Shown piece by piece: positions 3,016-61,086 of a stretch of 64,000 nt of DNA; the first letter of the stretch is position 1, and every line of letters starts with the position of its first letter. Under the pieces are notes generated by a model that saw only the letters and a program-made list of their open reading frames with translations, did no database searches and was not told where the DNA came from. Both the position numbers and the translations under genes were made by a program. The DNA lies in NCBI GenBank assembly GCA_021234155.1, contig JAJEKV010000001.1, positions 16,437,491 to 16,501,490 of the forward strand, written 5' to 3'. The stretch is from Isoetes taiwanensis (taxonomy: Eukaryota > Streptophyta > Lycopodiopsida > Isoetales > Isoetaceae).

Positions 3016-6000
3016 CTACGTACAAAAGGATGGGCTCCAGGTTTCAATCCATTTCCTGGCCTCTTCTTCTTTCTTATCGTCTCTTTTTTTTTTTTCCAGG
3101 ATCCATGCATGCTGAGCTGCTATGGTTGTTACTATGTTCGTCCGCTGCTCCACCATAAGCATGTTCATGGGCATCTCCCTTTGTTCGAAAAGCTTGACTG
3201 TGTAGCATCTCCAAATGGACCAGACTGTGTAAGTTCTCAGAACATTCCATACTTCTTGATCATTTTTTGTGCCATTGACCTGGTATGGTCCTGCTGTTTC
3301 ACTAAGCATGGGTTCTAAGGTTCCTTCCCAGCTCCAGGTTGACACGTTTTGATCATAAGCCATATCATCTTCTCGCATACCTGTGAGGACCATGTGCCAT
3401 GTGAAGCTGCTCCTCTAGTTGGTGGTTATCAGATTATGCCAAATCTTTATTGTCTTTCTCCATATATTTTTGGCTTGTTGGCATGACCAGAATACATGTT
3501 TCTGTGTTGCAGGTTCTCCACACCACTTGCAATCATTATAGGCTGGAGGATGTCCCCTTACATATTTCCTGGGGATTGCACTCTTGTTTGCCATGAGCCA
3601 AGCTAAGTATTTGACTTTAGCTTGACAGCCATTGTTCCAAATGAGCTTGAGCAGTCTTTCTTTTTTTATATCTCTTTCAATTCCCAACGTTAAAGCTTTC
3701 TGAAATAGTTTGGATGCTTCATTCTCTTGTACAGCTTGCATGATTCTACCTATCTTTGGGGTGAAGGAGAAGAAGTCATACTGTCTAGCATTGCCAAACT
3801 TCCAGCACCACATACGGGGATCCCATTCCAGCTCAGAGGCATTGCAGTTCCTGAAGATCATAAGATTTACAGGTAGGTCTTTTTCTACTTCTGGGTCCAA
3901 GATCATTTCCTTGCCTTTGAGGTCCAGTACCCTTATCTTTCTCCATTGTCTTTGGGTTGCTTGAGGGATGTTTTGTATGTCAGCTACCACTTTTTGCTGA
4001 ATCACGCCTAGATCATTGGCTATGAATTTGTACCCTCTGTTTTCTAAGGTAGAGGGTTGGAACCATACCTCTTTTTCATTGTTTCTGTTGGGTGTTGGGG
4101 TCCAATGCCACTTTTCCTGCCATGCAGCATTTGGTTGAGTTAACTCTGCCCACCCATCCTTTACTGCCTGCATTAAGATTTCGACATCACTAACAATTCT
4201 TTTTCTCTTGCAGGGTCCCAGGACTTGGATGATTTTTTGGAGGGTGGCCTCCCTTGTTGGCATGACGATCTTGTCTAGATCCTTAATAAGCCTGATGCCC
4301 TTTTCATGGAGCCATCTCCATCCTGCTTTATATATGTCCTCGCCTAGTTGTTGTCCCCTAAATTTTATTCTAGAGTTGTGATAAAGAAGCTGTTCAGAAA
4401 CTGATCAGGAGATGTGTGTTCCAGTTGCATCAACATTGGTTTGAAATGCTCCCATAAGTTAAACAATCCAGCTGAAAAACCCTGCAGACCTTTAGCATTT
4501 AGAGGGCAGTTAGCATAGATCCAAAGGGGGTCAGGGTGCCATTTCATTCCCTTTTTCCTGTTGGGAGTTGCCTTGAGGAGCATATGTCTAAAAAGTATTT
4601 TCCAAGGTTGTTGGCCAGGTGAAAAGGCTTTCACAAATAATTTGAAAAGCAAGGCTTTAGCCTGTTTGACTGGATCAATCAGTCCCAATCCCCCTCTGTC
4701 CCTTGGCAATATGACATTTTTCCATCCCACTTTGGAAGCTGGGTTCATAATTCCTGTTTTGCCCCTCCAGAGGTATATTCTAATATATTTTGTAATTTCC
4801 TCTAAATAATTCTTTCGAAGTACCCAGCCACTTGTAAGGTACCACAGGGCCCCTAATATTATACTGTTTATAACAGTGACTCTGGCGGGGAGGGAAAGGC
4901 CCTTATTGGCCCATTCGGCAAGATGATTCTTTATTAGGGCAATCATATGAGTTTCTTGGTCTGTTTTATTGATATCAGGTCCAACTTGAAACCCCAGGTA
5001 TCTCACTGTCTGATTCTGCTCCAGCCACTTGAATCCCCTATCAATACCCCAATTTGGCCTTTGCTTGCTGGACACCCATATTCCATAGGATTTTTCCCAG
5101 TTAATTGCTGCTCTAGCTGCCAGGCAAAAGGTGGAAAGGCAAGTTTCCATTTTATCCAAGTTCCCAACTGTGCCCTTAATGAACAAGGCTGTATCATCAG
5201 CAAATTCACATTCCCTAAGGTCCATGTCCTGAGGAGTTAGGTCTCTTAGGAATTCATTGTGGTTGGGAAGCTCTAGGCCCTGGGGACCCTCATTGCTGGC
5301 TAGGTAATATCCTAAGGCCTCGGTCATTAGAATGAAAAGGGCTGGGGCCAGAGGGCAGCCCTGTCGGACTGACCTATGCAATAGAATCTGCCTGCCCATG
5401 TAGCCATTGATGCAAGTTCTGCTTTTGGTGCCCCTATAGAGTATCGAGGCCATGGATATGAACCTGTTCGAAATGTCCAGCTTAGCCATGACTTTCTCCA
5501 TGAAGAACGTTATGTCATAAGCTTCCTCAAAATCCAGCAGGATGATTGCCAAGTCTTTTCTGGATTCCATTGCCCACTCTTGGGCTAGCTTAAGTGTTGC
5601 TATATTCTCAAAAATCAGCATTCCTTTCACAAATCCTGTTTGGGAGCTTCTGGTAATGCCTGGGAGGATATCTCTAAGTCTTATAGATAGAGTTTTTGCA
5701 ATGATCTTATAGATGGTGCACATCATAGAAATCGGGCGCCAATTTTTTAACTCTGTTAGATCTCCTTTTTTTGGGACCAATGTTATACATCCCTCAAGAA
5801 AGTCCTGATCCCAATTCCCTTGCTCCATGGCATTGTTCCATGATTGATGGATGATATTGCCTATCCATTCCCAGTTTTTGAGAAAGAAAGAGGGGTGGAT
5901 ACCATCCATACCTGGGCTCTTTTCCTCATTCAATTCTTTCAGGGCCTTTTTAAGCTCATCTGTAGAGAAGGGTTTGGTCAGTCCTATATTCAGAAGGGTT

Positions 6001-7378
6001 TGGTCAGTCCTATATTCATATCTTCACTTAATCTTCTTGGGACCTTATCCAAAATCTTTTCAATTGCCTCCCTTCTGCTATAATCTATTGGGATTGCCTC
6101 AAATACTTCCTCGAAGTAATTGTCAACCATATCCTGCATTTCAAGCTGGTTAGTTACCAATTGCATGTTTTGATTTTTTAACCCCAGGATGGGAGGAGTG
6201 ACTGATTTGCCTTTTAGAGCTGTGTAATGTGCATGGGACAGTTTCCTCTCATTCAAAAGCCACGAGACATTACTCTTTTCAAAGTAGTTTAGGATTTTGT
6301 CCTGTTCAACTTTTATTATTTCCTCTTTGATCCTTTCAACTTGTCCCCTGGCCCATCCATTGTTTGGGTCTCTTTCAATCATGTTGGTGGCAGCAGCCAA
6401 ATTATTTCTGAGTGCAACTTCTTTGCCAAACAACTTCCTTTTTAGATCTGATTGCATCAGTCTAGCTTTCTTAGAAATCCATTGAATTAGTCCAGCCAGG
6501 CCCTGCTCTTGATTTAATTCCCAATGTTCAATGGCTGATCTCTGAAGTTCAGCATCCTCAGCAATTGATTTTCTGATGCTAGCTTTACGCCTTTCCCCTT
6601 CAATGTTAATATTTCTATTGAGGTATATCAGGGGTCTATGGTCTGAGAAGTCAGAGAATTCCGTCCTTATTTGTAAACCTCCACCCCTGTTGCAAAACCA
6701 GTCTGTGGCATAGATTCTGTCAAGTCTTTCTTGTACTTGCCTGGCATTGGAAACCCAAGTGAATCTGGGGTAATGTGGTGTGAAGTTTTCATGTAGGTAA
6801 CAATCAGTGATGCCAAGGTCAAAGCACATCTCATACCACATGGTTTTTTCCGCTTCAGTCATCTGGAGTTCATTGCTGCCTCCCAATCTGTCCTGGATGT
6901 CTTCAAGCATGTTAAAGTTCCCAAGGATCATGAGGCCCTGCAGATTGTCAGGTATGAGCGGAAAAATTTGTTTCCACATTGATACTCTAAGTTCAGATTG
7001 TCTACTAGGGGTATACACATTCAAAATTCCAATTTTTTCATTATCATGTTTGATTACGACAAGTTGAGCCCTTCCTGGGTACAAAATTTGGTGGCTTTCC
7101 ACCAGGGTGGTTCATTTCGGACCAACAACCAAAAGGGTGCCTCCACCTGCTCTAGATTCTATGATAGTGGCAGGATTCCAAAAATGTTGCCCTGAGGCTA
7201 TCTTCCTTCTTTCATTTCTGTCTGCTATTTTGGTTTCTTGTATTGCTAATATGTCAAATTTCCCTGATTCAGCTTCTATTTCTTTTATGTGCAGTTTCAG
7301 CCTATCCAATTTGGTGACCCTGTTATCCCTTGAGCTTATTCCCTGCATGTTCCAAGTCAAGAAGTTGAGGCTCGTCAT
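3016..7378 (-). pseudogene. LINE ORF2: EEP endonuclease / RT / zf-RVT (broken)
   Basis: The start at 7378 gives an EEP endonuclease with LTWNMQGI, AIQETK, a YTPSR block and SDHRPLI. The usual GDFN motif reads GNFN, so a catalytic Asp appears lost. RT motifs follow: NWRPISMM, LLDFEEAYD (A), RQGCPLAPALF (B) and FADD (C). The C-terminus has a zf-RVT pattern (CKWCGEPATQKHVFWSC) and a final W-rich segment. Breaks are an in-frame TGA at 7114-7112, a 26-bp tandem duplication around 5965-6016 that shifts frame, a frameshift near 4375, and an in-frame TAG at 3417-3415. In the family this protein nicks target DNA and reverse transcribes the element RNA; this copy cannot. Confidence 0.92.
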
Positions 7379-8008: not shown

Positions 8009-8588
8009 TGTTTGGGGTCTGGGTTCGGGAACTCCTGCAAGACAGCCCTCTGTGAGGACCTTTGTATCTAACAGGAGAATCCGGGGAACTATGTCACGCG
8101 GGATTTGCAAGAAGGGAACAAAAAAAAGGAAACAGAACAACCAAAATGAGAGGAAAATGATAGGCTTCCTTGATATCAATGATGAACATACATGAGCTCT
8201 CGCAATGGAGAGAAAAACTGAAAGGAGACAAGACTCAAAACTCATCTAGAACTCATGTGCGAGCTCTAGTCATATATATAGTACAATGGCCTCTGGCCCA
8301 ATATAGACACTCTGACTGATCTCGGTGCCGACTCCTGGAAGGAGGCCTGATTTGCAGGAATGCTGGCGGTGCCTCTTGAGGTGCCTGGAATCATGCTGAC
8401 GCTGACGCGGTGACGGGCCGTCACTTCTCTGAGCGGCGCCTCTTAGGCTGAGGAGGCTTTGGGCGTATGGTCTGTTTGCTTGGTCTTAGTGAGACCTTTG
8501 ACGACCGACCGGGGACTGTGGATCCTTGAGCTTGACCTGGTCCGTTGTATGCATGAATAGTCCTGTACCAGGAGGCACAGGACTAACA
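8009..8588 (-). repeat. Gypsy 3' LTR
   Basis: 580 bp with terminal TG/CA. It matches 18493-19060 but carries many substitutions and small indels. The polypurine tract abuts its inner side. Confidence 0.93.
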
Positions 8589-8600
8589 CTCCCCCCCACC
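8589..8600 (-). promoter_or_regulatory. Polypurine tract of the Gypsy element
   Basis: The minus strand reads GGTGGGGGGGAG directly before the 3' LTR. This is the usual primer site for plus-strand DNA synthesis. Confidence 0.8.
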
Positions 8601-9523
8601 AAACGACACTCGTGAGTGAAGAAAAGGAGGAAGTGTTTCGAGGGTGGGAAGCCATCTGTCTCGAAAGTGATCCTCACGGGAGTGAGGATCGCACCATTAT
8701 GATACCGCCAATGAGATCCCGTGTTTGAAGAGCGGGAGGTGTGTTGAGGCCAAGGGCGGGATCTCGCATCAATAAAAATCGAGATCTTACCATGTCTTCA
8801 AAGGGCGATGGGCGCCGGAGGTAACGAACTCGACATTCCATGAGGAGGCAGTCCGGAGGCCGAAGGCGCGACACCGGCATTCGGATTGCAAAGTGAAAAA
8901 ATTAGGCCGGCCGATTTAAGAGCCGAGCAAGATGCATTTGAGAGCAAAGACAAAAAACTCGCTTGAAGATGGATCAAGGATCGGGTGAGGTGGTGGCATT
9001 CCAGAAGAAGGTGTCAAGACCATGAAGCGCATCACCCGGGGCGCTACCAACCACGCTCATTAGCAATATAGATCCATTCGTGGTGGTATCAAGAGTGGCA
9101 CCCTCCTCCCAATGGGAACGGCCGAACAAAGCGGGGATCCCACCGAGATCCGTCGAGATCCGAGGGGGGAGTCCATCCAAAGATGGCCATCCATGACCTT
9201 TGTCCAAAAGGGAGCGCCAATCGAAGTCGAGAACACAGGGCATGGAGGAACACCCGGGGAAGCATAGGGAGAAGGAACCATGCCCGTGGGCGTGGGTTCT
9301 TGAAATGTCTCCCTAATTGGATGACAAGATCCGGGATCAAGTGCTTGACACCAACGATCCCAAAGAGAAGCAGAGAGTTGAGAGTTGATGGGGAGGGCTA
9401 TCCCATCCCGTGGGGACCGGTCTTGCTATCCAACGAGCCCTTAATTGATTATAACTGCGAGGTCTTTGCGCATATAAACTTGTGCATAGGGAAGATCCTC
9501 GGGATGTCCCGAATACTTCCTTA
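8601..9523. other. Gypsy internal DNA between extra ORF and PPT
   Basis: Several short overlapping minus-strand frames occur here (9340-8674). None is long or recognisable, and they may be decayed C-terminal parts of the extra ORF. No other feature seen. Confidence 0.5.
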
Positions 9524-11659
9524 TCATTTGCGGGCCTCCGCTTGCCAGAGAGGTAAATGATTGGCAAGCTCAGGCATGTACTCCTGATGAAGAGTGTGGG
9601 TCTGAGCATGATCAGCAAGGTAGGGGTTGTTATCCTGAAGCAACCATTGCAAAGTGGGGTCACCCTGAAACATCTGGCGTCGCCCATCCCGAAAGTTTTC
9701 CTGTGTATCCCCCAGGTAAAAATCATGAAAAAGGTAGGCCATGGGCTGAACAACTCTGAAAGTGACAAAGTCTGGATCATCGCAGTGTATGAGATCAAAG
9801 ACCAAAAGGGCACAGCATAAACCTTTGTCCTCAATGGTGAGTTCCGGCCAGATCCTAAGAAAATCTGCATTGCGCAGGGGAACATCCACAGGTCCATCAG
9901 CCGCATGCCACTTCAGAAGGAATAGGTGGCGGCGGGCAACCACATAATCATGATAGGAGGAAGGAACTGGGAAGTCAAAAGGCAGTCTGGTGACAATGGC
10001 GTGATGGCCGTCGAGTTTTGCTTGAGCCTCATCAGCAGACTGAATAGCTTGCTGCAGCTGTTGTTCAAGGTCACGGATCCGGTTGTCCTTTTCTAGCAGC
10101 AGGCGTGATTGGTCACGGACCCATTTCTGCGAAGTGTTGACCTGGGAGGAGGATTGCCCTGGTGTATTGAGACGAAGCACGGCAATCTCCGCGTCATCAA
10201 GAATCTTCTGTTTCTGCACCTCTGTAAGCTGATCTTGAAGAGAGGTGAGCTTAGAGGTCTGTGTAGAAAGCTGAGCCGTCAAGGAGGCAATTTGAGCGTC
10301 CCGCTCTGTAAGGTTTTGAACTTGAGTGCTGTAATTGTCACAGAGCTCAGAGTACAAGGCATCGAGCTTAGAAATATCTTTGTCCTTGGCACCCAGAAGA
10401 GTGTCTTTGGACTTGTTTTGCTCCAACAAATTACGAATTTGGATTGGGCCGAGCACAGTGTGATCTGCAAGTTGGCTGACCTGATCCCGTGCACTTTTGA
10501 GATCCGTATGAGCACAGAAGAGAGCTCAGCGGCTTGTCTTGAAGTTTGGTCTCCAAAGTTGCAACTTGGGCGCGCGGGCGACTTGAAGGTCACGGTGGAC
10601 CACATCCGAGGCCTCTAGTGCCGCTTTGAACCCCGCTCATAAGAGCTTCCCGGGATTCTTGTAACTTAAGAACAAAGCGGCTTTTGAGCATCCTGGCGAT
10701 CTTGATACAACAAAATTTACGAGGGTGTTGTGGTGGTGGAGCCCCATTGCACGGTTTGTGATGTTTGGGAGATATGGTGTGAACTGGATGGTGTAGGCCG
10801 AGGAGGAGAGACAGTGACATGGGAGTGCGGATTTTGGACATGACCCGGTGGAAGGCGGGCGTGAAGTGCCAACTTTGTGAGTCCAGGGAAGGGACCGAGT
10901 GGAATTATGAGAATTTTGTGGTGTGGGAGGAAAGTAATGACGGATGATGGCTTGAAGGTGACCTCCCACGAAAACTTCAAAATGGAAGTGGCAACCGGAA
11001 GGCGGTCCACTTCTTGGAGAAGACGGTAGAAACAAAGAATTGGGGCCAATCTATGTGGTGGTTGGAGTGTGTAGCAAAGGAGCACCATATTATAGAAAGG
11101 CTTATTGATATGGGTGTTCTTGATAGAATACCCAAGGAACTTTATCGCCAGAAACTTAACAAAGGTTTCGTGAGGCTTATCTATATTGGTCAGGCGATGC
11201 ACATTGGCATGATAAGGAGGTGCACCAAACTCTGTGACATCCAGATCCTGTATGGCAGACCATGATAAACAAGGGGTTTGTAAGGGAATATGGAATACCT
11301 CGGAAATCAAATGTTGAGTCAGCGAAATGGTGGTGCCATCGACTACCGCGGGTGTATCCATGCGAGTCATTAACGATATTGGCGATGAACCGCCGGTTGG
11401 TCGATTTGGAGCCTGGAAGTTCCATTTGAGAGAATTCGTAAAGCTTTTGGCGTTCAGCGACTTCTCGATTTGGGCCAACAAGGGCAGCTCGGAAAGTGGG
11501 CGTCAAGAAGGATACAGACTCGAAAAGAGCCGGGTCCCTGGGAGCAGTAGCTTGAAGTGTAGAAAATCTTGGTGCAGCCATGGTAAAGATTTGCAGAAAA
11601 GAAGAGTGATTCAAAGGCGGAGGACGAAAGCCAAGAACGAAGGCGCAGAGGAACGACAA
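9524..11659 (-). pseudogene. Extra ORF after integrase (aORF) with coiled coil
   Basis: Three minus-strand frames form one probable protein of roughly 700 residues broken by frameshifts: 11659 to about 11300, 11481-10717 (254 aa) and 10456-9524 (310 aa). The middle part has a PAVVDGTTISLTQHLISEVF-type block that resembles the plant-transposon-protein domain known from third ORFs of Athila/Tat elements (family inference, unsearched). The last frame begins with about 150 residues of heptad-like coiled coil rich in Leu, Gln, Asp and Lys, then a globular tryptophan-containing region. There is no signal peptide or transmembrane segment, so an envelope role is not supported. It lies in the usual position of such ORFs, 0.86 kb past the integrase. 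Confidence 0.6.
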
Positions 11660-26000: not shown

Positions 26001-26075
26001 AGGAAGGTGCGGGGCTTCGTACCTCCAGCACCCCACCATATATTTTTCATTTTTTGTGGACTGAATAGACATTTT
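23026..26075. repeat. Dispersed repeat R1, copy b
   Basis: This is the longest R1 copy. Its left part (CACTTGCCACGTG..., two blocks with AAAGCCCCATCA, 23250-23450) matches 33540-34100 and 41119-41570. The middle (23936-24620) matches copy a and 41980-42360. The right part contains tandem modules starting with GGGTTCGATGTGGTGGGT near 24583, 24611 and 25165. No protein family is recognisable. The right end merges with poly(T) before the Penelope-like element. Confidence 0.65.
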
Positions 26076-27676
26076 TTTTTTTTTGTGATCTGAATAGACA
26101 TTTTCTTTAAACTTGATATGGCAAATAAATGGTAAAAGAACTACCCGTAGATGATTCTAAACATGCGTACCAGGAGTGACTGGTAATACATCTAAAAATA
26201 TGGTCCAGTCTACACCATACAAAAAAAATAATAGGCACAAGCTCAATTACGTCTTATCTCTAGGATTTAATGGTGATTAGAAGGGAAAGTGCCCCCCTAA
26301 GTGACGAGAAATGAATTTACTAGGATTGGATTAGACGGCCGACGAAATTTATGACGAAGATTTAAGGTTCTGACCTAAACAGTATGGCAGACCCTCGAGC
26401 TGATAAAGGACTTTGCAGGTCACATAGGACCAAAAATATCTTCTAAGATTATGGCGGGTAACTGAATCATGGGTTTTAATTCAGATGGCTGGACTGATAG
26501 CCATAGTTCTGAGGATGAGTTTAGATGTAGAGACGGAGAGGGAGCTTCTGTGGTGCAAAAATTCTGAAAAACTTGAGCAACTAAGTATGAATAGGAGAGG
26601 AGGCGGTCGGAGCTTTGACTCCAAAAGAAGTTTCGATGATAGCAGAGGTGGATACAATGCTAAAAGAGGCGGAGGTTTTCACCGAAACCCAGGTGGTTAC
26701 TTCAGGAACAACAATAACGAGCAATATGTTCCCGAGACACAACCAAATGAGGATGATATTGATTCCGAAAACGAAGATCTACAGGTAAAAACGAAGATCT
26801 ACTGGTAAAATGAATTACCAAGAAAATGCATAAAGGAGCAGTCTATAAGCTGGACGGATTTGCTATCATATATTTGTTCTAATCTATACGTTGATTATTT
26901 TACTATCATACATCGGAATTATTTTGACTGTACATTTTTAGTAGATAGTCTGATATCAAGAGCAAAGGGTACATTAGGTGAAGGGCGAAGAGCCAAGAAT
27001 CACCTAATGTACCTTTTGGCCCTTGGGTCGTTACCGAGTCTATCGCTAACGTTCTCATGATTGGCTGCAGGTACGTGGTGATTCTTCTCCTAATGTATCA
27101 TCTTTGCTGTTATGGTGTTCTACTGGTCGAAACGGATGTACTGGTCTATATTTACTACACTGTGTAGTAGCGGATTTAGCAGTAATAAAAAATTCATAGT
27201 TTGGGCAAACTTGTGAACAGCCCAATGACAAAAGTATAAGGTTGACGGGTAAGATTAATTTTACTCCTTGTTAAACATTGAACACGTTGAAATAACAATC
27301 AAATGTGGAGCATTTTTTATAAGTAAAGTTCACACATAATACAGGTACGTTTTGCTGTGCATTTTAGGATGTTTTAATGGCAAACACGTTAAACCTTATT
27401 TTATAAGAATAACGTGCATTATGGAATGACTGTCCTAATGATCTGAACATCCCATGGAGTGGAAAAAGTTTTTGTTTTCAAAAAAATGATGATTGAGTCG
27501 GTAGATTCAAAAAAGAGTGTCAATAGTTTCTGAACTTGTTATCCATAGATTGTTGTACCAGACTCAAATCTATCTAGATCTTTGGATGGAATGATAAAAC
27601 TATGGAGGGATTGACCAAAGTAGTATGATGTGCTAGTAGGATTGTTGTCCAGACTAGTTATGTCCGGGTTTTTTTT
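26076..27676 (+). repeat. Left direct repeat (pLTR-like) of the Penelope-like element
   Basis: 1601 bp matching 31913-33510. Differences include loss of 5 bp near 26512 (breaking the RGG exon frame), an extra 20-odd bp near 26985 that creates a perfect GTACATTAGGTG/CACCTAATGTAC hairpin, and loss of TATCTCCAG near 27350. Confidence 0.9.
26466..26804 (+). pseudogene. RGG-box first exon, left copy (5-bp deletion)
   Basis: Equivalent to the intact 32306-32650 frame but frameshifted by a 5-bp deletion about 45 nt after the ATG. From about 26530 it regains the ETERELLWCKNSEKLEQ frame and encodes RRGGGRSFDSKRSF, RGGYNAKRGGGF and an acidic tail. A GT at 26805 (CTACTG/GTAAAATG) is a plausible splice donor. 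Joining 26804 to 27734 (AATAACAG/GAATGG) preserves phase and reads into the 502-codon frame through Trp-Asn-Gly. The exon is therefore probably exon 1 of ORF1. A downstream Met (about 26587) could still start the protein. Confidence 0.6.
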
Positions 27677-27733
27677 AGACACTTCATTTCTCTAGTTTAA
27701 CTGGAGTTGCATCGTATCTATTGGCAATAACAG

Positions 27734-29252
27734 GAATGGACTATTGAATGGTATGTTACACTCACAAAATGGTATAACTCAGGAGGAGGCACAAGCGGAC
27801 AATATTGAGTTTGTACCTCCAGTATGGAATAGAGACCTTGGACCGATTGGCTATGCTACAAGCAGGATTACATGTCCAAGCTATGCCGTACAGACGGTAT
27901 TATGTTGCATCAAAAACCACCAGGTACACATACAGTTACTCGAAAAGGAGGCGGCCAGGAAGCCGGAGGAATTATCTGCTATTTCACATTTAGGTTTTAA
28001 TGAATGGTTGGAGTTAGTTCCCAGGCTTAATAGGCTTGGTGAGGATGGGGACGAGATCAGCAAGCTCATTGAGGATATATATGATAGCCTACCTACTAAA
28101 GTATATCACTGCACTATGGAAGAGGATAAGACCAAAAATCAATTCTTCAAAGGGGTGCTAGCTTTGGAAAAAGCCAATAAGATTAAAAAATCCAGCCTTA
28201 GTGATGTGATTATTCAAAAAACAGACACTTGTACTGATCAGGATGATGAAGATGACCCCTTTGGGGAATCGCTCCTGTCCGAACAAGATAAAATTGACAT
28301 CGGTAAAAAAGGAGCCAGCAGTGGTAATGGGGAGGATGATAAAGACTTCAGCTTCACTTTACACAACTGTCACCTTTTTCCCATTATTTCAGAAAGACTT
28401 GTTGAAAGCCACGCCATATTCTGTAATCAAGGGATCTGGAGAACAAAGAACTTTGGAGCCTTAGCCCCCATTAGCCGGGCCTCATGGATCATGCTCGGGG
28501 GGATTACACCCGAACAAGAAAAAATGGCTAAAATAGCAGCAAAAAAGATGGAAAAGATAGTGTACAAGGAAAAGTTTAAACTGAGAATTGATCATCGGTT
28601 CTTTGATAAGAAATGTAACAAGGATACGTCCATATATGTAAGGCAAAAAGGACATATGGCATATTCTACAATTACAAGGGATCCCTTCTACATCAAAAGA
28701 GTTTGGCGAAGCATGTGCCCATATTTCAAGTGCGTATGTGAACCCAGGGTGAAGGGTAATGCTTGTAAGGACAACATGACTTGGATTGACCATGCTATCT
28801 GGTACATGTTTAATAACCTAGACCACATTTTCCCTGATATGTCAGTTGTGGCGCAAATGGTCTCAATGAGGAAGTTTATGAAGACTACTCTAAGGGACAG
28901 CATAATCGCATACATTTCGTATTTGGAAGTAAGAAATACACTTATTACCATGACAATGATGCTGGCCACAGATCCATGGGCAGACCTAAAAATTGGCTTC
29001 CCTGTGTGTAAAATGGCAACTATATGCGAGAAAAGCATAAAACCAAAATCATTCATGAAAGATATGGAGGCTGGTTCCAGTAATGTAGCGGAAAGAAAGT
29101 CAAAACAGTTTAAACCCAGAACACCGTCGTATGGTACAGTTGCAGGTTATGCTCCACCGCGTATCACGGTGTTACCTGGACAAAGTGGCTCTAGTATGGC
29201 TGATAACTCCAACATTGAGCAGATTGGTACTCCAAGTGCCATGGGTGGCTGA
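27734..29252 (+). CDS. Penelope-like element ORF1 (main exon), unknown family
   Basis: About 502 codons open to TGA at 29250-29252; the first ATG in frame is 27753. No recognised domain. Visible features are an acidic linker (DQDDEDDPFGE, around residue 165), a WRTKNFGALAPISRASW block, a lysine-rich EKMAKIAAKKMEKIVYKEKF helix, a Cys-rich MCPYFKCVCEPRVKGNAC segment that could bind metal, and a basic, Ser/Pro-rich tail. It lies directly upstream of the RT, so a nucleic-acid-binding or gag-like role is a guess. Probably spliced to the RGG exon. The open frame over 1.5 kb implies recent selection or youth. Confidence 0.7.
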
Positions 29253-29620
29253 GTCTCAAAGCAAAGACAAGAGTCAAATGTCAGAGATGGGGATGGTGTC
29301 GTCCAACAGCTTAAATATGACAAATAGATATTGGTACTGTCAATTACAATAACTTTTTCCTTAAGAAATCTTATCACTCTTTAATGACATTTTGTATAAT
29401 GACTTGAGTCGTTGTATGAATCATACGATAGAATATTTTGAATGGTCTTTCTAAGTTATGAAAGTACCTATTGACAAGTGAAGCTGACATGCCATTGTCC
29501 ATGTCATGCTATTACATACTGCTACTCCAGTTTTGAAATTTAAAAAAAAAGGAGTATAGACATGTACAAGTTGACCATGACACCAATCAGATATTACGAT
29601 ATTTATATCTAAATAAGGTA
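29253..29620. other. ORF1-ORF2 spacer
   Basis: AT-rich, no ORF. A splice-acceptor-like TATATACAG ends at 29638, in phase with ORF2, so the mRNA for ORF2 may begin translation or join there rather than at the ATG at 29621. Confidence 0.5.
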
Positions 29621-31705
29621 ATGTTTGTTTATATACAGATTGCTAGGGTAATTACCAAGGATTGCCAAGGCAGGTTTCATCTGCTGGAGAATAAACAAAA
29701 GAGCAAACGAAAAGTAGTACATTGTTTCTTTCTGTCCAAAGTAATGGACAAAATATGCATTCCAAAAATAATACACAGACATATGACTAAATGCCTAGGG
29801 GAAATAGGTGAGCAGATTATGAATCTGACCATGTTCTCATGGAGATACACTGAAAGTTTGAAAGAAATATGCTACAAACCATATTATATTTTTGCACAAG
29901 ATGTGGAGGCAATATGCCCATGCAGTAACCCAAGTCTAAAAGAGTTTATAGATCCCAAGATTGGGCACATCAGAACTACGGATCTCAAAATTGTTAAATG
30001 CAAAAGTCTTAGAAACCTTTTTAGTAAAGGACTTGGGCATATACCAGACAAACCATTAATATGGAGAGACCTAAAAGCAGAACTGAGAAAGGTATGCAAC
30101 TCTATCTTTGAGTGGCACAAATACCAGTTCTCTGATATAAGTGAAAGTGACAAGATTGAAGTGATTAATGGGATACTTGAGCAAGCGGGCTCTGAAATAA
30201 AAGATGCATGTGACACAAGTATGGCTATAAGATTCCCACTAAATGACCCCGTTGTCATAAAGAATATCGAATGGCTGACAAAGAACCTTTACATATCCGG
30301 GGTTAATAAGGCATCCAATAACCCATCCTTTATATGCCCATATCACATAAAAGACATGGCCTTTAAAAGGCTTGGCAGTGAGGATTTTATGCCTTTGGGT
30401 AGTGAAAAGGAGAACCTATTAAAGGACCTCAATAAGGTAATAGAAGAGTATATTAAAGGCATTCCGGAAGAGCCCGGTAAATTACCATATCTGTTAGGCT
30501 TATTCAAGGCCCACAAATCTGAATATAGATGGATTACTAATGCCCATGGCACTGTGTATACAGAATTGGCAGAGATCATCACAGTTGTACTTAATGAGAT
30601 ACTGAACTTATGGCCCGAAATATCAAAAGATATATGTGCTAATATCAGCACTTTTGTGGGTAGTAAATTAAATGTCAACTGGATTGTTAATTCAATATAT
30701 GATGTGACAGTCAACTTATCCACAAGGATTGAGGAGGTGTTTGTAGCAGACATCACTAAATGTTATGAGAGCATATCCTTGCTTGGGGACCATGGTATCT
30801 GCAGTACCAGTGAAATGGTAATCAATGCTGCCTGGAACTATATGAAGAACAAAAATAAGAATTATGAGCTATGGATAAAACATTCCAGCGGAGGTAAGGT
30901 GACAACTAAATGGTTTAAAACAGCCCCAAAGGGAAAATGCTGGTCTATGATGAGCAAGAAAAGGTTTACTATGATAAATAACTGGCTGTTAGAAAATTGC
31001 TATGTCCAAATGGGGAAAGGGATATGGCAGCAAATCATGGGTATACCAATGGGATTTGCATGCAGTCCTAATTGGTGCAATATATACCTTGCATGGTTTG
31101 AATTGGAATTCATCAGAAACTTAGCAAGGCAAGGAAGTTTTGATGAGATTAAGAAATTTAAGCATGTGTTCCGTTATATGGACGATCTCCTCGCCATCAA
31201 TTGTCCTAACATTAAGAGATTCCTTAGTAAGGATGGGCTGGAGAACGGGCAACGAGTACAAATATATGACCTTAACATTTTGGACATTAAGGAAGAAACT
31301 GGATACACGGAATTTGCTCCAGGAATACAATTTGGTAACCAAGCAAACTTCCTTAATATGACAATACGGGTTTATGACAGAGCATTAGGCTTATTTCAAA
31401 CAGTAAAATATGATAAAAAGATGGCATTACCTTTTGACTCTATTAGATTTGTACATGCACATAGCTGCAGGCCATACTTCCAGGCTAGGAATGTGGTCAT
31501 ATCACAGATTATGCCATGTCTATATGTAAACACTAACCCAAGTAAAGCTGCAAAGGATATTATGGACCTAATTCAACAGTTTGTGTCCAATGGATTTGAT
31601 GAAGGAGGGATGAAGAGAAGAATTATTAAATATATCAAAGCCAGCGATTTCCCTGGGATTAAATTTGACGTCAATACCGTAATGCAAATGATCAAGGAAT
31701 ACTAG
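29621..31705 (+). CDS. Penelope-like reverse transcriptase, endonuclease-less
   Basis: 694 codons. The N-terminal region has a CPC motif and HIRTTDLKIVKCKSLRNLFSKG, resembling the CxC and following segment of Penelope-like proteins. The fingers region reads LPYLLGLFKAHKSEYRWI. RT motifs: VADITKCYESI (A), MGIPMGFACSPNWCNIYL (B) and FRYMDDLLAI (C, catalytic Asp pair present), then a thumb with FVHAHSCRPYFQARNVVISQ. The protein ends soon after the thumb, with no GIY-YIG domain. In the family, the RT primes on DNA 3' ends; endonuclease-less members are known to use telomere ends. All catalytic motifs look intact. I cannot place it in a named clade without a tree. Confidence 0.85.
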   Translation: MFVYIQIARVITKDCQGRFHLLENKQKSKRKVVHCFFLSKVMDKICIPKIIHRHMTKCLGEIGEQIMNLTMFSWRYTESLKEICYKPYYIFAQDVEAICPCSNPSLKEFIDPKIGHIRTTDLKIVKCKSLRNLFSKGLGHIPDKPLIWRDLKAELRKVCNSIFEWHKYQFSDISESDKIEVINGILEQAGSEIKDACDTSMAIRFPLNDPVVIKNIEWLTKNLYISGVNKASNNPSFICPYHIKDMAFKRLGSEDFMPLGSEKENLLKDLNKVIEEYIKGIPEEPGKLPYLLGLFKAHKSEYRWITNAHGTVYTELAEIITVVLNEILNLWPEISKDICANISTFVGSKLNVNWIVNSIYDVTVNLSTRIEEVFVADITKCYESISLLGDHGICSTSEMVINAAWNYMKNKNKNYELWIKHSSGGKVTTKWFKTAPKGKCWSMMSKKRFTMINNWLLENCYVQMGKGIWQQIMGIPMGFACSPNWCNIYLAWFELEFIRNLARQGSFDEIKKFKHVFRYMDDLLAINCPNIKRFLSKDGLENGQRVQIYDLNILDIKEETGYTEFAPGIQFGNQANFLNMTIRVYDRALGLFQTVKYDKKMALPFDSIRFVHAHSCRPYFQARNVVISQIMPCLYVNTNPSKAAKDIMDLIQQFVSNGFDEGGMKRRIIKYIKASDFPGIKFDVNTVMQMIKEY

Positions 31706-31787
31706 AAGGTACGCCTAAAATGGTACTTAATATTTGAAAAGGATTTAGTGTTATAATAATACATGAAGCTGTATGGAGCAAACTATA

Positions 31788-31895
31788 GGGTTGTAAAAGA
31801 CCCCTACTGTAACAAGTAGGGGTCTGCTCACCCTATTAGTTACAGTATTAAATGATCTCATTCTATTTGAGTAAAAACAGGGGTCCTTTATAACC
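31788..31895 (+). ncRNA. Structured RNA element after the RT ORF
   Basis: An outer stem pairs 31789-31805 with 31879-31895 (15 of 17 pairs). An inner perfect 10-bp hairpin pairs 31799-31808 with 31815-31824 over a GTAACA loop. The loop region 31805-31813 (TACTGTAAC) is also perfectly complementary to 31839-31847 (GTTACAGTA), allowing a pseudoknot or an alternative fold. It sits just before the right direct repeat, where an RT-recognition or processing signal would be expected. Confidence 0.55.
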
Positions 31896-31912
31896 TTACG
31901 GCAGGAGGTAGG

Positions 31913-33500
31913 GTTTTTTTTGTGATCTGAATAGACATTTTCTTTAAACTTGATATGGCAAATAAATGGTAAAAGAACTACCCATAGATGATTCTAAACA
32001 TGCGTACCAGGAGTGACTGGTAATACATCTAAAAATATGGTCCAGTCTACACCATACAAAAAAAATAATAGGCACAAGCTCAATTACGTCTTATCTCTAG
32101 GATTTAATGGTGATTAGAAGGGAAAGTGCCCCCCTAAGTGACGAGAAATGAATTTACTAGGATTGGATTAGACAGCCGACGAAATTTATGACGAAGATTT
32201 AAGGTTCTGACCTAAACAGTATGGCAGACCCTCGAGCTGATAAAGGACTTTGCAGGTCACATAGGACCAAAAATATCTTCTAAGATTATGGCGGGTAACT
32301 GAATCATGGGTTTTAATTCAGATGGCTGGACTAATAGCCATAGTTCTGAGGATGAGTTTACACCAGATGTAGAGACGGAGAGGGAGCTTCTGTGGTGCAA
32401 AAATTCTGAAAAACTTGAGCAACTAAGTATGAATAGGAGAGGAGGCGGTCGGAGCTTTGACTCCAAAAGAAGTTTCGATGATAGCAGAGGTGGATACAAT
32501 GCTAAAAGAGGCGGAGGTTTTAACCGAAACCCAGGTGGTTACTTCAGGAACAACAATAACGAGCAATATGTTCTCGAGACACAACCAAATGAGGATGATA
32601 TTGATTCCGAAAACGAAGATCTACAGGTAAAAACGAAGATCTACTGGTAAAATGAATTACCAAGAAAATGCATAAAGGAGCAGTCTATAAGCTGGACGGA
32701 TTTGCTATCATATATTTGTTCTAATCTATACGTTGATTATTTTACTATCATACGTCGGAATTATTTTGACTGTACATTTTTAGTAGATAGTCTGATATCA
32801 AGAGCAAAGGGTACATTAGGTGAAGGTAATGTACCTTTTGGCCCTTGGGTCGTTACCGAGTCTATCGCTAACGTTCTCATGATTGGCTGCAGGTACGTGG
32901 TGATTCTTCTCCTAATGTATCATCTTTGCTGTTATGGTGTTCTACTGGTCGAAACGGATGTACTGGTCTATATTTACTACACTGTGTAGTAGCGGATTTA
33001 GCAGTAATAAAAAATTCATAGTTTGGGCAAACTTGTGAACAGCCCAATGACAAAAGTATAAGGTTGACGGGTAAGATTAATTTTACTCCTTGTTAAACAT
33101 TGAACACGTTGAAATAACAATCAAATGTGGAGCATTTTTTATAAGTAAAGTTCACACATAATACAGGTACGTTTATCTCCAGTTTTGCTGTGCATTTTAG
33201 GATGTTTTAATGGCAAACACGTTAAACCTTATTTTATAAGAATAACGTGCATTATGGAATGAATGTCCTAATGATTTGAACATCCCATGGAGTGGAAAAA
33301 GTTTTTGTTTTAAAAAAAAATGATGATTGAGTCGGTAGATTCAAAAAAGAGTGTCAATAGTTTCTGAATCTGTTATGCATAGATTGTTGTACCAGACTCG
33401 GATCTATCTAGATCTTTGGATGGAATGATAAAACTATGGAGGGATTGACCAAAGTAGTATGATGTGCTAGTAGGATTGTTGTCCAGACTAGTTATGTCCG

Positions 33501-33510
<10 letters not shown>
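31913..33510 (+). repeat. Right direct repeat (pLTR-like) of the Penelope-like element
   Basis: 1598 bp copy of 26076-27676 carrying the intact RGG exon, followed by poly(T) to 33538. Confidence 0.9.
32306..32650 (+). CDS. RGG-box protein exon, intact right copy, 114 aa
   Basis: Starts MGFNSDGWTNSHSSEDEF and continues through an acidic/charged part, RRGGGRSFDSKRSFDDSRGG, RGGGFNRNPGGYFRNNNNEQ and an acidic tail ending VKTKIYW. Gly/Arg/Asn-rich composition with RGG repeats is typical of RNA-binding, low-complexity regions. In this right copy nothing lies downstream to splice to, so it is either a short independent protein or a passenger copy of ORF1 exon 1. Donor GT at the final Trp codon is conserved with the left copy. 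Confidence 0.6.
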   Translation: MGFNSDGWTNSHSSEDEFTPDVETERELLWCKNSEKLEQLSMNRRGGGRSFDSKRSFDDSRGGYNAKRGGGFNRNPGGYFRNNNNEQYVLETQPNEDDIDSENEDLQVKTKIYW

Positions 33511-33538
<28 letters not shown>

Positions 33539-33540
<2 letters not shown>

Positions 33541-35240
33541 ACCTGGGCACCTGCCACGTGTCCACTCTTTAGCTGTCCCATCAGCCCAACAGCCACTAGA
33601 TGCCATCATGTGAGGGCAATAACCACACACGTGTATGCCCCTGGCCGTCCCATCATATACAAAGGCAAAAGTAGGAGGGAGGTTTGAACCTCCCTCATTA
33701 TGGCTCCAAGGCCCTAAGGTAGGTACCCTGTACCAACTGGTCAGAAGTACCATCATTACACTTTTGTTCCGCCCTGCCCTGTTGAGCCAAGAATAGGCCC
33801 GAACTGTCACAAAATAGTGAAGAATCTAATTGGGCAGCCAGATCTTCAAATTAGGTTCTGATTTTTTCCTGGCTAGGTCGGCCTGCTGGTCCGAATTCAA
33901 TTATCCAAGAAGCCCCATGAGATTTGCTTGCTTATGGGCTTAATTGAGATTTTCCTCTTCTGTACCCAAACCTGTAACAAACCGCCCCAATTTCTTGATT
34001 GATGCTTCCAATTCTTGGTCTTCATGGTCAGATTATCTTCTCTATTGTGCCCACATGAAAAGCCCCTTCAAATTGATCCTAATTTGGGCCGAATTGAATC
34101 TTTACCTCTGTTTTTGTCAAGAATAGCCAAGAAGTACTTACAGACCTGATTTCTTGTTGATTTTGGCTCATATTTCATGATTAATCACCCAATACTAGCC
34201 TCTTGTGGTCGGAACTGATGCCCAATGCCTATTAAAACTGAAAGCCCCTTCAAATTACCACGATTTTGGGCTTGATTGGAAGAACAGGCCTGCTGCCCTC
34301 CATATCCCTGCTCCCGAACTGTAAAATCCGGGTTAATCCCCTGTTTCCTTGAATCTTTTCTAGATGGGTTACTCAATCCTTGTTCCTATGGTCTATCTAA
34401 GCCCTGTAGTAGCAAAAGCCCCTTGAGATTTGAGTGGAAATGGGCTCCAATCCGGTCTGAACCTTGATTACCACAAGAACTTCTGCTACAGCCCGAAAAT
34501 CACTGCCTAAATGCTCTGGATCCTTCATTCCAGCCTGGTTAAACCCTTCCACAAGCTCCCAAGAGAGTATACTACCTTTCTTTGATCCTCCAGCATACCC
34601 AAATCCTCAAGAAACACTCCACAGCCCTCCAAATGGGGAGATATTACGGAATGAGACCAACCATTTAACAAGAGAACTAATGGCTTAGTTAGGACAAAAT
34701 TACAGCATGGAAATCCACAAGTAAGGCAGCAAAACCTCGATTTTTCATGGAAGAACTTCCCCAAAACTGATTACAAAGAGATTCATACCTTTGTTTGAGC
34801 TCAAATCACTTCTAGGCAGGCCCAAGATGGGCTGTATCAGCCCCAAACTAGACTGAAATCCCCTGCAGCTGGCTGCCCCAGCCAGATCCTCATCCAAATC
34901 CGACTTCTTCCTTTAGATCCAAGCCCCTTTTTCGCCTCCCACGGATCTTTCTTAAAGCTCCAGCTATGGCAGCCCAACCCCTTGCTGAAAACAGCCAAGA
35001 ATAGGCTCCTCCGAAAGCTCTAGGCATGGCGAATCCATGGCTGAGGGCAAGAGCAAGGCTAGATTCAAATACGAAGCATGGATCAAGCGAGAAAACGGTG
35101 GGAAAGCACAAACCGTGTTTTCTCCCCCAAGGCGCCCAAGGGGAGAGCGCCTTGGGAATGGGAATTGGGAATTAGGGTTCGATGAGATTTTGGGGTTCGA
35201 ATTATTCAATTATCATGAAAAACCCACAAATACAAATGTG
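33539..35240. repeat. Dispersed repeat R1, copy c (diverged)
   Basis: Begins GCACCTGGGCACCTGCCACGTG and carries the AAGCCCC blocks near 33913, 34058 and 34244, each followed by a line similar to the other copies. It ends near a GCGCCCAAGGGGAGAGCGCC palindrome and ATTAGGGTTCGATGAG. It abuts the poly(T) tail of the Penelope-like element. Short frames inside are not genes. Confidence 0.55.
33681..33743 (-). repeat. tRNA-like boxes within R1 copy c
   Basis: The minus strand has TGACCAGTTGGTACAGGG (A-box-like) and, about 45 nt later, GGTTCAAACC (B-box-like), the spacing of a tRNA-derived pol III promoter. The following GAGGGAGGTTCAAACCTCCCTC is a good T-arm-like hairpin. No full tRNA cloverleaf is evident. 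Confidence 0.4.
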
Positions 35241-37533: not shown

Positions 37534-37564
<31 letters not shown>

Positions 37565-37625
37565 CGGGGTTAGGGTTCGGGTTGGGGTTAGGGTTGGGTT
37601 GGGATTGGGGTTGGGGTTGGGGTTG
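37534..37625 (+). repeat. Interstitial telomere-like repeats
   Basis: A mixture of TTAGGG, TTTAGGG, TCGGGG and TTGGGG/TTGGGATT units on the plus strand, more decayed to the right. It could mark an old chromosome end, a telomerase-repaired break, or capture of a telomeric RNA. Confidence 0.8.
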
Positions 37626-58357: not shown

Positions 58358-59406
58358 TAGTTAGCAATTTGTTAACTAATCTTTTTGCATCTATGTTGGA
58401 GCTTAAAATAAGCAAATGGGCTGATGAACAAAAGGCTAGAGCACATTTGCCAAGCAGGCTTCAGGCCGGAACATTCGACCATTGATCATCTGGTGACATT
58501 ACGTGCTGTAATGGAAGGAGCAAAAGGTAAAAACAACGAAAGATACTTAGCATTCATTGGCTTGGCGAAGGCATTTGACAGTGTTAAAGGGCAAAATCTA
58601 GCTAGCAGGTTGGAACATTTCATGTGCCCATTGAACTTTGCCATGCAGTATCATGTATGTATGAACAAGTCCTCATTCAGCTTTCCGTTCCATTTAACAA
58701 GAGCAGATAACTAGTATCACTGGAGTGAAACAAGAATGCCCTTGTTTGCCGACATTATTTGGTTTGTATATTGATGAAATAGAAGACTGGCTACAAAGGC
58801 AAGGAGGTGTAGGAGCAAATATTTATGGTTATGTAATCCAATTACTACTTTATGCAGATGACATAGTCCTTATCTCACATAGTGCTGCAGGACTTCAACA
58901 ACATCTAGATACATTAAATGAGTTTTGTATCCAGAGAAGTATGCAAGTAAACATAGATAAATCAAAGACGACGGTAAATGATACTAGGATTCAACCAAAA
59001 TTTACAATTTATGGAAGAAATCTCGAACAGTCTGGACAATACAAGTATTTAGGTATTGAAGTATCAGATCATAAGTGGACTGATGCAGTACAAAATAGAG
59101 TCATAGGTGGCTTAAGAGCCTTATATGCTATGTTCCATATATGCCGTCAAAATAACATATGCCACTGGCATTTCAGAAGCTTAATTTACAATGTGCAAGT
59201 ACGAACGGTGGTGCTATATGATCGTCAGGTCTGGGCTCCGGATCTCTCTCAATATCTTTGGAAGAAAGTAGAGCAAATACAGAAAAGATTTCTATCAGAG
59301 GAGCTTGGTGTAAAGGCTCAGACACCTTATTGTATGTTGTTGGCTGAAGCTAGTATGCTACCATTAGAGGCAGAAGCCTTATGTCAGACATTGGACTATG
59401 TAAATA
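58358..59406 (+). pseudogene. LINE family 2, copy A, 5' part (RT)
   Basis: Starts inside the RT: NLLTNLFASMLELKISKWAD (58360 on), then QAGFRPEHSTIDHLVTLR in a shifted frame. Next come GLAKAFDSVKGQNLASRL (motif A, usual Val-Asp replaced), VKQECPCLPTLFGLYIDEIE (motif B, usual RQGCPLSP) and LLYADDIVLIS (motif C). A YKYLGIEVSDHKW segment and thumb-like region follow. It is cut at 59406 by copy B and resumes at 61248. The element is 5'-truncated and inactive. Confidence 0.88.
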
Positions 59407-61086
59407 GAATAAGAGAGCTCACTCCAGACCAATTGTCGGGCTGGGCAGAGGCAGCAGAGGTGCGGGCCCTCACTCAGGCAGGATTTAGACCCCGGCACTC
59501 AACCATTGACCACATATTCACGTTGCGAACTCTGATTGAAGACAGCAGGAACCGCCGTCAGGATCTATATTGTTGCTTTGTGGATTTTGCAAAGGCGTTT
59601 GACACTGTGCCTCGGGAAAAACTATGGGCAAGACTGCAACAGCTGGGGGTTCCTGTAGATTTGCAGAATGCAGTGTATAGGCTATATGAAAGATGCTCGG
59701 GTCGGTTGCAGCAGACAAGCCAACCATTTGATAGTAGTATCGGGGTTCGTCAGGGATGCCCTCTCTCCCCAACATTGTTTGGGCTTTACATTGATCAATT
59801 GGAGAGCTGGCTTGCTGATAATGGGGGCGATGGAGCTCACCTTCTCTATCAGATCATCAGACAGTTAATATATGCTGATGATGTGGACCTCCTAGCTTAC
59901 ACACCAGCAGACATGCAACGACATCTCGATGCCCTGGACACATTCTGCCAAGCGACTGATATGCGCGTCAACCTGGCCAAGACTAAGGTGGTTTTCATAT
60001 CATCTTCCCTCCTTCAGTTACCAAGGCCAGAATGTGGAAGTTGCATCCACATACAAGTATTTGGGAGTGGAGTTTCCTTCTACTATGCATTGGGACACAT
60101 CCATACGACTACGAGTGACGGCAGGCTGGAAGGCACTATATGCAATGCAAAACAATAGTCATAGAGCGGAGTTGTATGATTGGGCCCATCAGTCACACCT
60201 GTTCAAGGTCTTAGTAGAGCCTGTCCTTTTATACGGGGTGGAAGTATGGGGCCCAGTAGTATCACTTGCTACTTGGAATGACTTGGAGTAGGTCCAGAAA
60301 GCCTTCTTAGTACGAGCACTAGGGGTGAAGTCCACAGTCCCATATCAAATTCTACTGCAGGAGACAGGATTCTTGCCTCTTCAGAGGGCGGCCCTTGATC
60401 GCCACATTGTCTATTTTCAGAAGGTAATCAATATGGACGATGCTCGTCTCCCTAAACTAGCTTATATCATGGCAATGGGGCCGCAGCGCCTCAAGGCCTG
60501 CTGGAGGGAAAAGAGAGCTCAATGGTTGGCTAGATGGAATGTGCAGGAGCACAGGTGCATACATGTGCAAACAGAGGCAGATCGCCATAGCTTGAGGCAA
60601 TATCTTGATGCTTGCTTCCTCAGCAAGCTTTGGGATGCCAATGCCCTTGAACATGTCAAGACAGCACACTATCAGCGCCACATAAATCCCACATTGGAAC
60701 GAGGCCCGCAATGCTACCTGCGTACCCATTTGCCCATGAAAAGGCGGAGACTCATTGCCTCCATTCGCACACATCTTCGAATTGAGACGGGTAGATGGAT
60801 TGGTGAGCCACGCTAGGACAGGCTCTGTCAATGCTGCCAAATGGGAGTCATTGAGGATGAATCTCATACCCTTCAAAGTTGCCCAGCATATGATCAAATT
60901 CGGACGCGCTATGCTGAATTGGTCAGGCCTGGCCAGCCGTTACATGTGACATTGAGCACACCATCCGTACGGGTGCTGGGATCATACCTTCAGGAGGTTA
61001 TGGACATGCGAGATCAGCTATGTCCTCGGGCACACACTTGACATGTATATATACATTGATGTATACTTGTACAGTTTGACAGCATT

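Follow-up and report, generated by a model that had tools for sequence, protein, structure and literature searches.

The element and its family

From our analysis of a 64,000-nucleotide (nt) stretch of the Isoetes taiwanensis genome (hereafter the window; assembly GCA_021234155.1, contig JAJEKV010000001.1, positions 16,437,491 to 16,501,490), we describe a plus-strand retroelement bounded by two long direct repeats, one at 26077-27676 with T-runs at its start and end, and one at 31914-33510 that starts with a run of eight T residues (T8). Two long open reading frames (ORFs) lie between the repeats, namely ORF1 (27744-29252, 502 aa) and ORF2 (29621-31705, 694 aa), the latter encoding a reverse transcriptase (RT). 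Repeats and frames are located where a preliminary description, made from the letters of the window, had placed them. We read the element as a member of an endonuclease-deficient Penelope-like element (PLE) family with a retrovirus-like layout, an interpretation that we consider fairly probable.

Further copies, which the preliminary description had proposed to look for, are plentiful. Using ORF2 as query against the 1.658-Gb genome, with the best 64 of 4865 first-look candidates scored, we found at least 67 matching pieces at 52-100% identity, a count that takes in the window itself and in which some copies appear as two pieces. The sample drawn for comparison consisted of 20 copies with 10 kb each, 13 with about 4.3 kb, one 2.1-kb piece, and four short empty-site pieces. 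Of the 20 ten-kb copies, 18 have an ORF1, often interrupted, ahead of ORF2 (exceptions, L025 and L027). The conserved order of the two ORFs and the number of genomic matches indicate that the element is not a chance pattern. RT frames free of inner stops occur in other copies, and parts of both ORFs show a ratio of nonsynonymous to synonymous differences per site (pN/pS) of about 0.05-0.13 (only 2-5 unsaturated pairs each). In essence, this is a large and diverse family with young copies.

Coding capacity and class of the reverse transcriptase

The window ORF2 matches RVT_1 of Pfam with an E value of 6.3e-5, below the curated cut-off, and RVT_1 is matched by all 23 family ORF2 members. The window ORF1 has no Pfam match, and no Pfam domain is common to the 17 family ORF1 members, although their alignment contains a conserved cysteine pattern around CPYxKCxCxPxxxGNxCK. 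The preliminary description had seen no RNase H, integrase, or GIY-YIG motif in the window, and had named an integrase or GIY-YIG domain in other copies as a finding that would speak against it; none of the three is among the Pfam matches at E <= 0.1 of the 23 ORF2 and 17 ORF1 members, with the reservation that a highly diverged GIY-YIG domain could escape such a search. Nor did Pfam match a tyrosine recombinase, which would have pointed to a DIRS-like element, in members of either ORF, and no protease match was found in the element. Naiad- and Chlamys-type PLEs, to our knowledge, carry an N-terminal GIY-YIG, and none was found in the Isoetes family.

The predicted RT structure (mean pLDDT 55.7, which is middling) ranks telomerase RTs first among solved structures in Foldseek, with low TM-scores of 0.10-0.23 to the telomerase reverse transcriptase (TERT), and LTR-type (long terminal repeat) RT far below. 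Because of this ranking, rather than of a tree with PLE or TERT references, the RT is likely of the Penelope-like type, which agrees with the preliminary description. A sequence that we take to be that of an invertebrate PLE-type RT gave a full-length match over 420 columns with 28% identity, a similarity that we count towards Naiad- and Chlamys-type PLEs.

Gene model and predicted splicing

Conservation across copies suggests a gene of three exons, the first of which lies inside the repeat. Exon 1 (26469-26784), an RGG/Gly-rich N-terminus, ends in CAG|GTA; a predicted intron 1 with conserved donor and acceptor (26785-27782) separates it from exon 2 (27783-29252), the body of ORF1; and exon 3 (29639-31705) would encode the RT with 688 aa counted from the predicted splice site. 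The starts of the listed ORFs (TTG for ORF1 and ATG for ORF2) fall within the predicted introns. Exon 1, with its peptide ending in LQ|V, is present in 17 of 21 loci (not in L015, L022, L024, and L028) and also in the distant copy L042, which supports the two-exon ORF1 of the preliminary description. The CAG|GTA letters were read in the two repeats of the window and in L021, and are deduced from the peptide elsewhere. An in-phase acceptor opens exon 2 in 15 of 17 alignment rows (exceptions, L015 and L017), and all predicted exons share a single joining phase.

At the end of ORF1, a GT directly follows the conserved end in 14 of the 17 loci that hold the motif (21 examined), while L012, L026, and the window read AT. 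In an overlapping set, the GT was found in 13 of 19 loci (not in L012, L029, L035, L036, L040, and L041). Seventeen of 19 loci show an exon 3 acceptor in phase 0 (the only phase looked for by our script), and L020, missed there, has one in the set of 21 loci. Purifying selection already acts on the opening 35 codons of exon 3 (pN/pS of 0.08 from 18 pairs, 0.14 from 5, and 0.18 from 64, in three classes of distance whose pairs are not independent), and any methionine occurs within them in only 11 of 26 loci, with no conserved start codon. Since exon 3 is selected from its splice site without a conserved methionine, the RT would most simply be translated from an upstream exon, either by an exon 1-exon 3 join or by readthrough of the ORF1 stop. 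Readthrough, for which splicing would place the stop and exon 3 in one frame, is consistent with the YDK-stop conserved at the ORF1 donor and with the phase 0 of exon 3; we nevertheless regard it as rather unlikely, since the stop lies away from the donor in the basal copies L035, L036, L040, and L041 (exon 3 is in phase 0 in the three where it was recognised) and since exon 1 itself ends in phase 0, so that exon 2 could be skipped with no readthrough. The basal copies thus favour the exon 1-exon 3 join.

The window copy departs from this model in three places. A 5-nt deletion in its 5' repeat, as compared with its 3' repeat, shifts the frame of exon 1, of which an uninterrupted coding copy remains in the 3' repeat (32306-32626); a TGA (29250-29252) ends ORF1 ahead of the conserved family end, a TAG at 29325-29327; and the stretch corresponding to the predicted intron 2 of relatives (29328-29638) begins with AT where relatives carry the GT donor. 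The claim that both main frames are open is thus right for the listed ORFs and does not extend to the whole copy, which is young by its repeats, yet damaged in three places.

A conserved RNA structure within the predicted intron 1

A block of about 230 nt in the predicted intron 1 (26922-27151) can be aligned across copies where the remaining repeat cannot, and our family model folds it with 63 base pairs. Its fold has a z-score of -5.0 (0 of 200 shuffles as stable). Changes on both sides occur in 15 of the 63 pairs, whereas shuffling gives 7.1 (0 of 500 shuffles reach the observed value) and sliding the alignment gives 2-5; the excess of further pair types is smaller (39 vs. 35.3; 19 of 500 shuffles). 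These figures come from 17 rows, one repeat per locus, several of them from one subfamily. The model also finds the block in L042 (140 bits, E 8.6e-31), a copy of 57% RT identity that is outside the rows used for model building. There, 48 of the 51 core pairs with letters are standard, and in comparison with the window, nine pairs differ at both positions while remaining paired, nine are broken, and three are gapped. The copy of the structure in the 3' repeat of the window (32764-32972; 208 bits) is 20 nt shorter. No Rfam family matched the block. Covariation lends no support to an alternative local hairpin. Because the exon 1 donor precedes the block, a spliced mRNA would lack its 5' copy, and the intron RNA may mark the genomic RNA. 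A partial match to the model (49 bits) was also noticed at L013:129-251, away from the repeats of that copy.

Repeats of one copy appear to be made together

The repeats of the window differ by 14 substitutions and four gap events over 1580 aligned sites (Kimura two-parameter, K2P, distance 0.9%), which corresponds to about 0.6 million years at an assumed, not measured, rate of 7e-9 per site per year and agrees with the recent copy suggested by the preliminary description. Within-locus divergence is 0.7-5.0% in 12 loci, and repeat length in the family is 1.6-2.7 kb. A tree was built of 12 repeats from one subfamily, with seven loci represented. Five of these loci have both repeats, and in four of the five each repeat has the other as its nearest neighbour; the L012 pair groups at 88/86, with L025 next. 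Since repeats cluster by locus, both repeats of a copy appear to have been made together, as in LTR elements, with gene conversion as the alternative.

T tracts at the edges and an empty target site

The junctions of the repeats with the internal part are marked by a T tract of almost fixed length. With patterns requiring 6-14 T, the junction of the 5' repeat with the internal part (27669-27676 in the window) is exactly T8 in 14 of 16 listed places and T7 in two, and that of the internal part with the 3' repeat is exactly T8 in 18 of 20, the rest being T9 and T10. The outer edges read T13-T30 in 13 of 13 measured 5' edges and T7-T36 in 10 of 10 measured 3' edges, one of them at the end of its stretch. 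Of the 21 loci at hand, the remainder have no usable edge, and the loci measured at the 5' side are those with a repeat pair. In four loci (L010, L011, L014, and L023), an extra A separates the outer T-run from the 5' repeat, and the internal T8 that starts the 3' repeat is free of it. In the window, the first ~29 nt of the repeat are partly duplicated in tandem at the 5' edge (26042-26108), and the 3' edge is a T36 run (33503-33538). A SINE-like sequence with a tRNA-type B box follows on the minus strand (33539-33790, extent estimated), and its poly(A) may belong to this T36 run.

Two sites at the ends of the internal part recall LTR elements. A short hairpin just past the 5' repeat (27690-27706) occupies a primer-binding-site-like position, and its paired letters co-vary by eye. 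A conserved purine-rich tract (31900-31913) immediately precedes the 3' repeat at a polypurine-tract-like position. Further upstream is a highly conserved 65-nt region (31784-31848) with a hairpin and a possible pseudoknot, conserved in sequence with little covariation; it is near-identical in most of 19 rows (L024 is unaligned and the loop of L017 differs).

The joined flanks of L014, searched against the genome with the best 40 of 307 candidates scored, gave at least 62 matching pieces, and four places match at 90-95% across the full query. These empty junctions read T7, T7, T8, and one interrupted T-rich tract, whereas the filled site has T28 before the element and T15 after it, the latter equal to T8 plus T7. 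The comparison indicates that about 20 T are new and lie on the 5' side, as would be expected if the poly(A) tail of an antisense RNA had been copied or if the T8/A8 end had slipped. We saw no short target duplication beyond the T-run. This insertion entered a short interstitial T tract, not a chromosome end, and by eye no telomere repeat occurs in the ~40 nt beside the measured edges (13 at 5' and 10 at 3'). The attachment to chromosome ends that the preliminary description had envisaged is therefore not borne out. No hammerhead match was found in 12 kb of the window or in six loci, in a search that can miss minimal variants. Separately, a sequence matching the left flank of L014 at 99% is found some 14 kb from it (G000:C1027:13143721-13143862), upstream of another RT copy on the same strand, and there may have been a local duplication.

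Proposed cycle and competing explanations

As part of our reading of the family, we propose that transcription would start in the 5' repeat and that exons 1 and 2 would yield ORF1 as an RNA-binding, gag-like protein. For the RT, an exon 1-exon 3 join would be the likelier source, ahead of readthrough. The intron RNA would pick the unspliced RNA for copying, the spliced mRNA being devoid of its 5' copy. At insertion, the T8 ends would pair with short A/T tracts where the DNA is already nicked or broken, or where the enzyme of another element has nicked it, and DNA synthesis would begin there. A bolder reading, which we hold to be rather unlikely, is that a retrovirus-like replication cycle evolved independently on a telomerase-type RT. 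In it, the folded intron RNA would mark the unspliced genomic RNA, strand transfer or the copying of a polyadenylated antisense RNA would renew both repeats, and the element, free of an endonuclease, would enter short T tracts by end pairing, possibly at nicks made by LINEs.

Other accounts of the copying have to be weighed against the same edges and repeats. The template could be an antisense polyadenylated RNA whose poly(A) pairs with the 3' end of a target T-run in a LINE-like manner, so that the sense strand opens with poly(T); introns would be kept because antisense RNA is unspliced. The T13-T30 tracts at all 13 measured 5' edges against T7-T8 in the empty sites of one locus, the ~20 T beyond the target plus two T8, and the LINE-like ORFs in the window are in line with such a template, which has been suggested before for Penelope as a reason for its retained introns (PMC3846280). 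However, T8/A8 ends extended by slippage or without a template would carry such a tract too, and a tail does not explain the extra A after the T-run in four loci; we consider the antisense template possible, on the unlikely side. The sense RNA could instead be copied in the LTR manner, with the minus strand primed inside the 5' repeat, the plus strand started at the purine tract, repeats renewed by strand transfer, and T8 ends joined to T tracts by microhomology. The apparent joint making of the repeats, the conserved hairpin and purine tract at the expected positions, and the T8 at most junctions are suggestive of this route, but the lack of an RNase H or integrase match and the low place of LTR-type RT in the structure ranking make it improbable to us.

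The repeats could also be ordinary pseudo-LTRs (pLTRs) of PLEs, left over from tandems that were transcribed and inserted by target priming. Tandem arrangements do occur in three of 20 copies (L009, L016, and L017), L025 appears 5'-truncated, and the start of the 5' repeat is unmeasured in eight of 21 loci. On the other hand, 13 loci, chosen for their repeat pair, have the same 5' repeat start behind a T-run, and in the one subfamily examined repeats group with those of their own locus and not with those of their own side; we hold this account to be somewhat unlikely.

Several observations weigh against our reading of the family as a Penelope-like element with a retrovirus-like layout. The RT model is of middling quality with low TM-scores, its class comes from a ranking instead of a tree, the PLE-type sequence matched by the RT is a presumed one, and ORF1 matched no known fold. 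Splicing is predicted from conservation, L017 has shifted frames after the acceptors of exons 2 and 3, and the ORF1 stop is misplaced relative to the donor in the four basal copies. L025 is without ORF1, the first ~235 RT residues, and a detected 5' repeat, the state expected of a 5'-truncated insertion, and the empty site was resolved at one locus only (L014).

Relation to known elements

PLEs without an endonuclease are listed for Selaginella, Pinus, and Picea (PMC9033089), and the Isoetes family has in common with them the plant host, a PLE-type RT, and no endonuclease. The PLEs of Selaginella, a spike moss, are described as telomere-associated (PMC12477314), in contrast to the T tracts at the measured edges of the Isoetes family. 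The preliminary description had suggested a little-described plant or algal lineage with an extra large ORF1; we infer that the plant host stands, whereas a large ORF1 alone is not new, because PLEs of 4-6 kb with two ORFs and no endonuclease are described (PMC6431247). Athena and the Terminons of bdelloid rotifers likewise have a PLE RT without fused endonuclease, two or more ORFs, and head-to-tail copies. Hammerheads occur in PLEs (PMC11722881), and the ends of Terminons are described as having hammerhead ribozymes and reverse-complement telomere repeats (PMC6431247), while the Isoetes family has T8 ends and no ribozyme match. Canonical Penelope shares pLTRs, introns (predicted here), and a part of the coding sequence within the repeat (PMC3846280); the Isoetes family differs from it by its repeats of 1.6-2.7 kb, a separate ORF1, and no GIY-YIG found. 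With LTR retrotransposons and retroviruses the family shares jointly made repeats, a gag-like plus RT layout, predicted splicing, an RNA element past the first donor, and a purine tract before the 3' repeat, and it differs from them in RT type, in T8 repeat ends, and in having no RNase H, integrase, or protease match.

Endonuclease-deficient two-ORF PLEs are thus already known, and what is added here is the gene model, the intron RNA, the T8 edges with jointly made repeats, and the T-tract empty site. No such family is named in the titles and abstract openings that our searches of the PLE literature brought up, which were not aimed at T tracts or an intron RNA. The questions addressed are how PLEs are copied, why their introns are retained, and how forms devoid of an endonuclease come to insert at sites other than telomeres. 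A large family with young copies, an identifiable empty site, and a covarying RNA that would separate genomic RNA from mRNA make the replication cycle testable in one plant.

Neighbouring sequences

Elsewhere in the window, fairly open LINE-like ORFs, RT and endonuclease-like by eye, lie on the minus strand at 3415-7102, and a second LINE-like RT ORF lies on the plus strand at 58725-60158. In the L027 locus, a long ORF at 8568-9998 reads like a PPR protein and, together with the LINEs, suggests that the host is a land plant. A degenerate TAGGGT tandem array occurs in the window at 37534-37624, away from the element.

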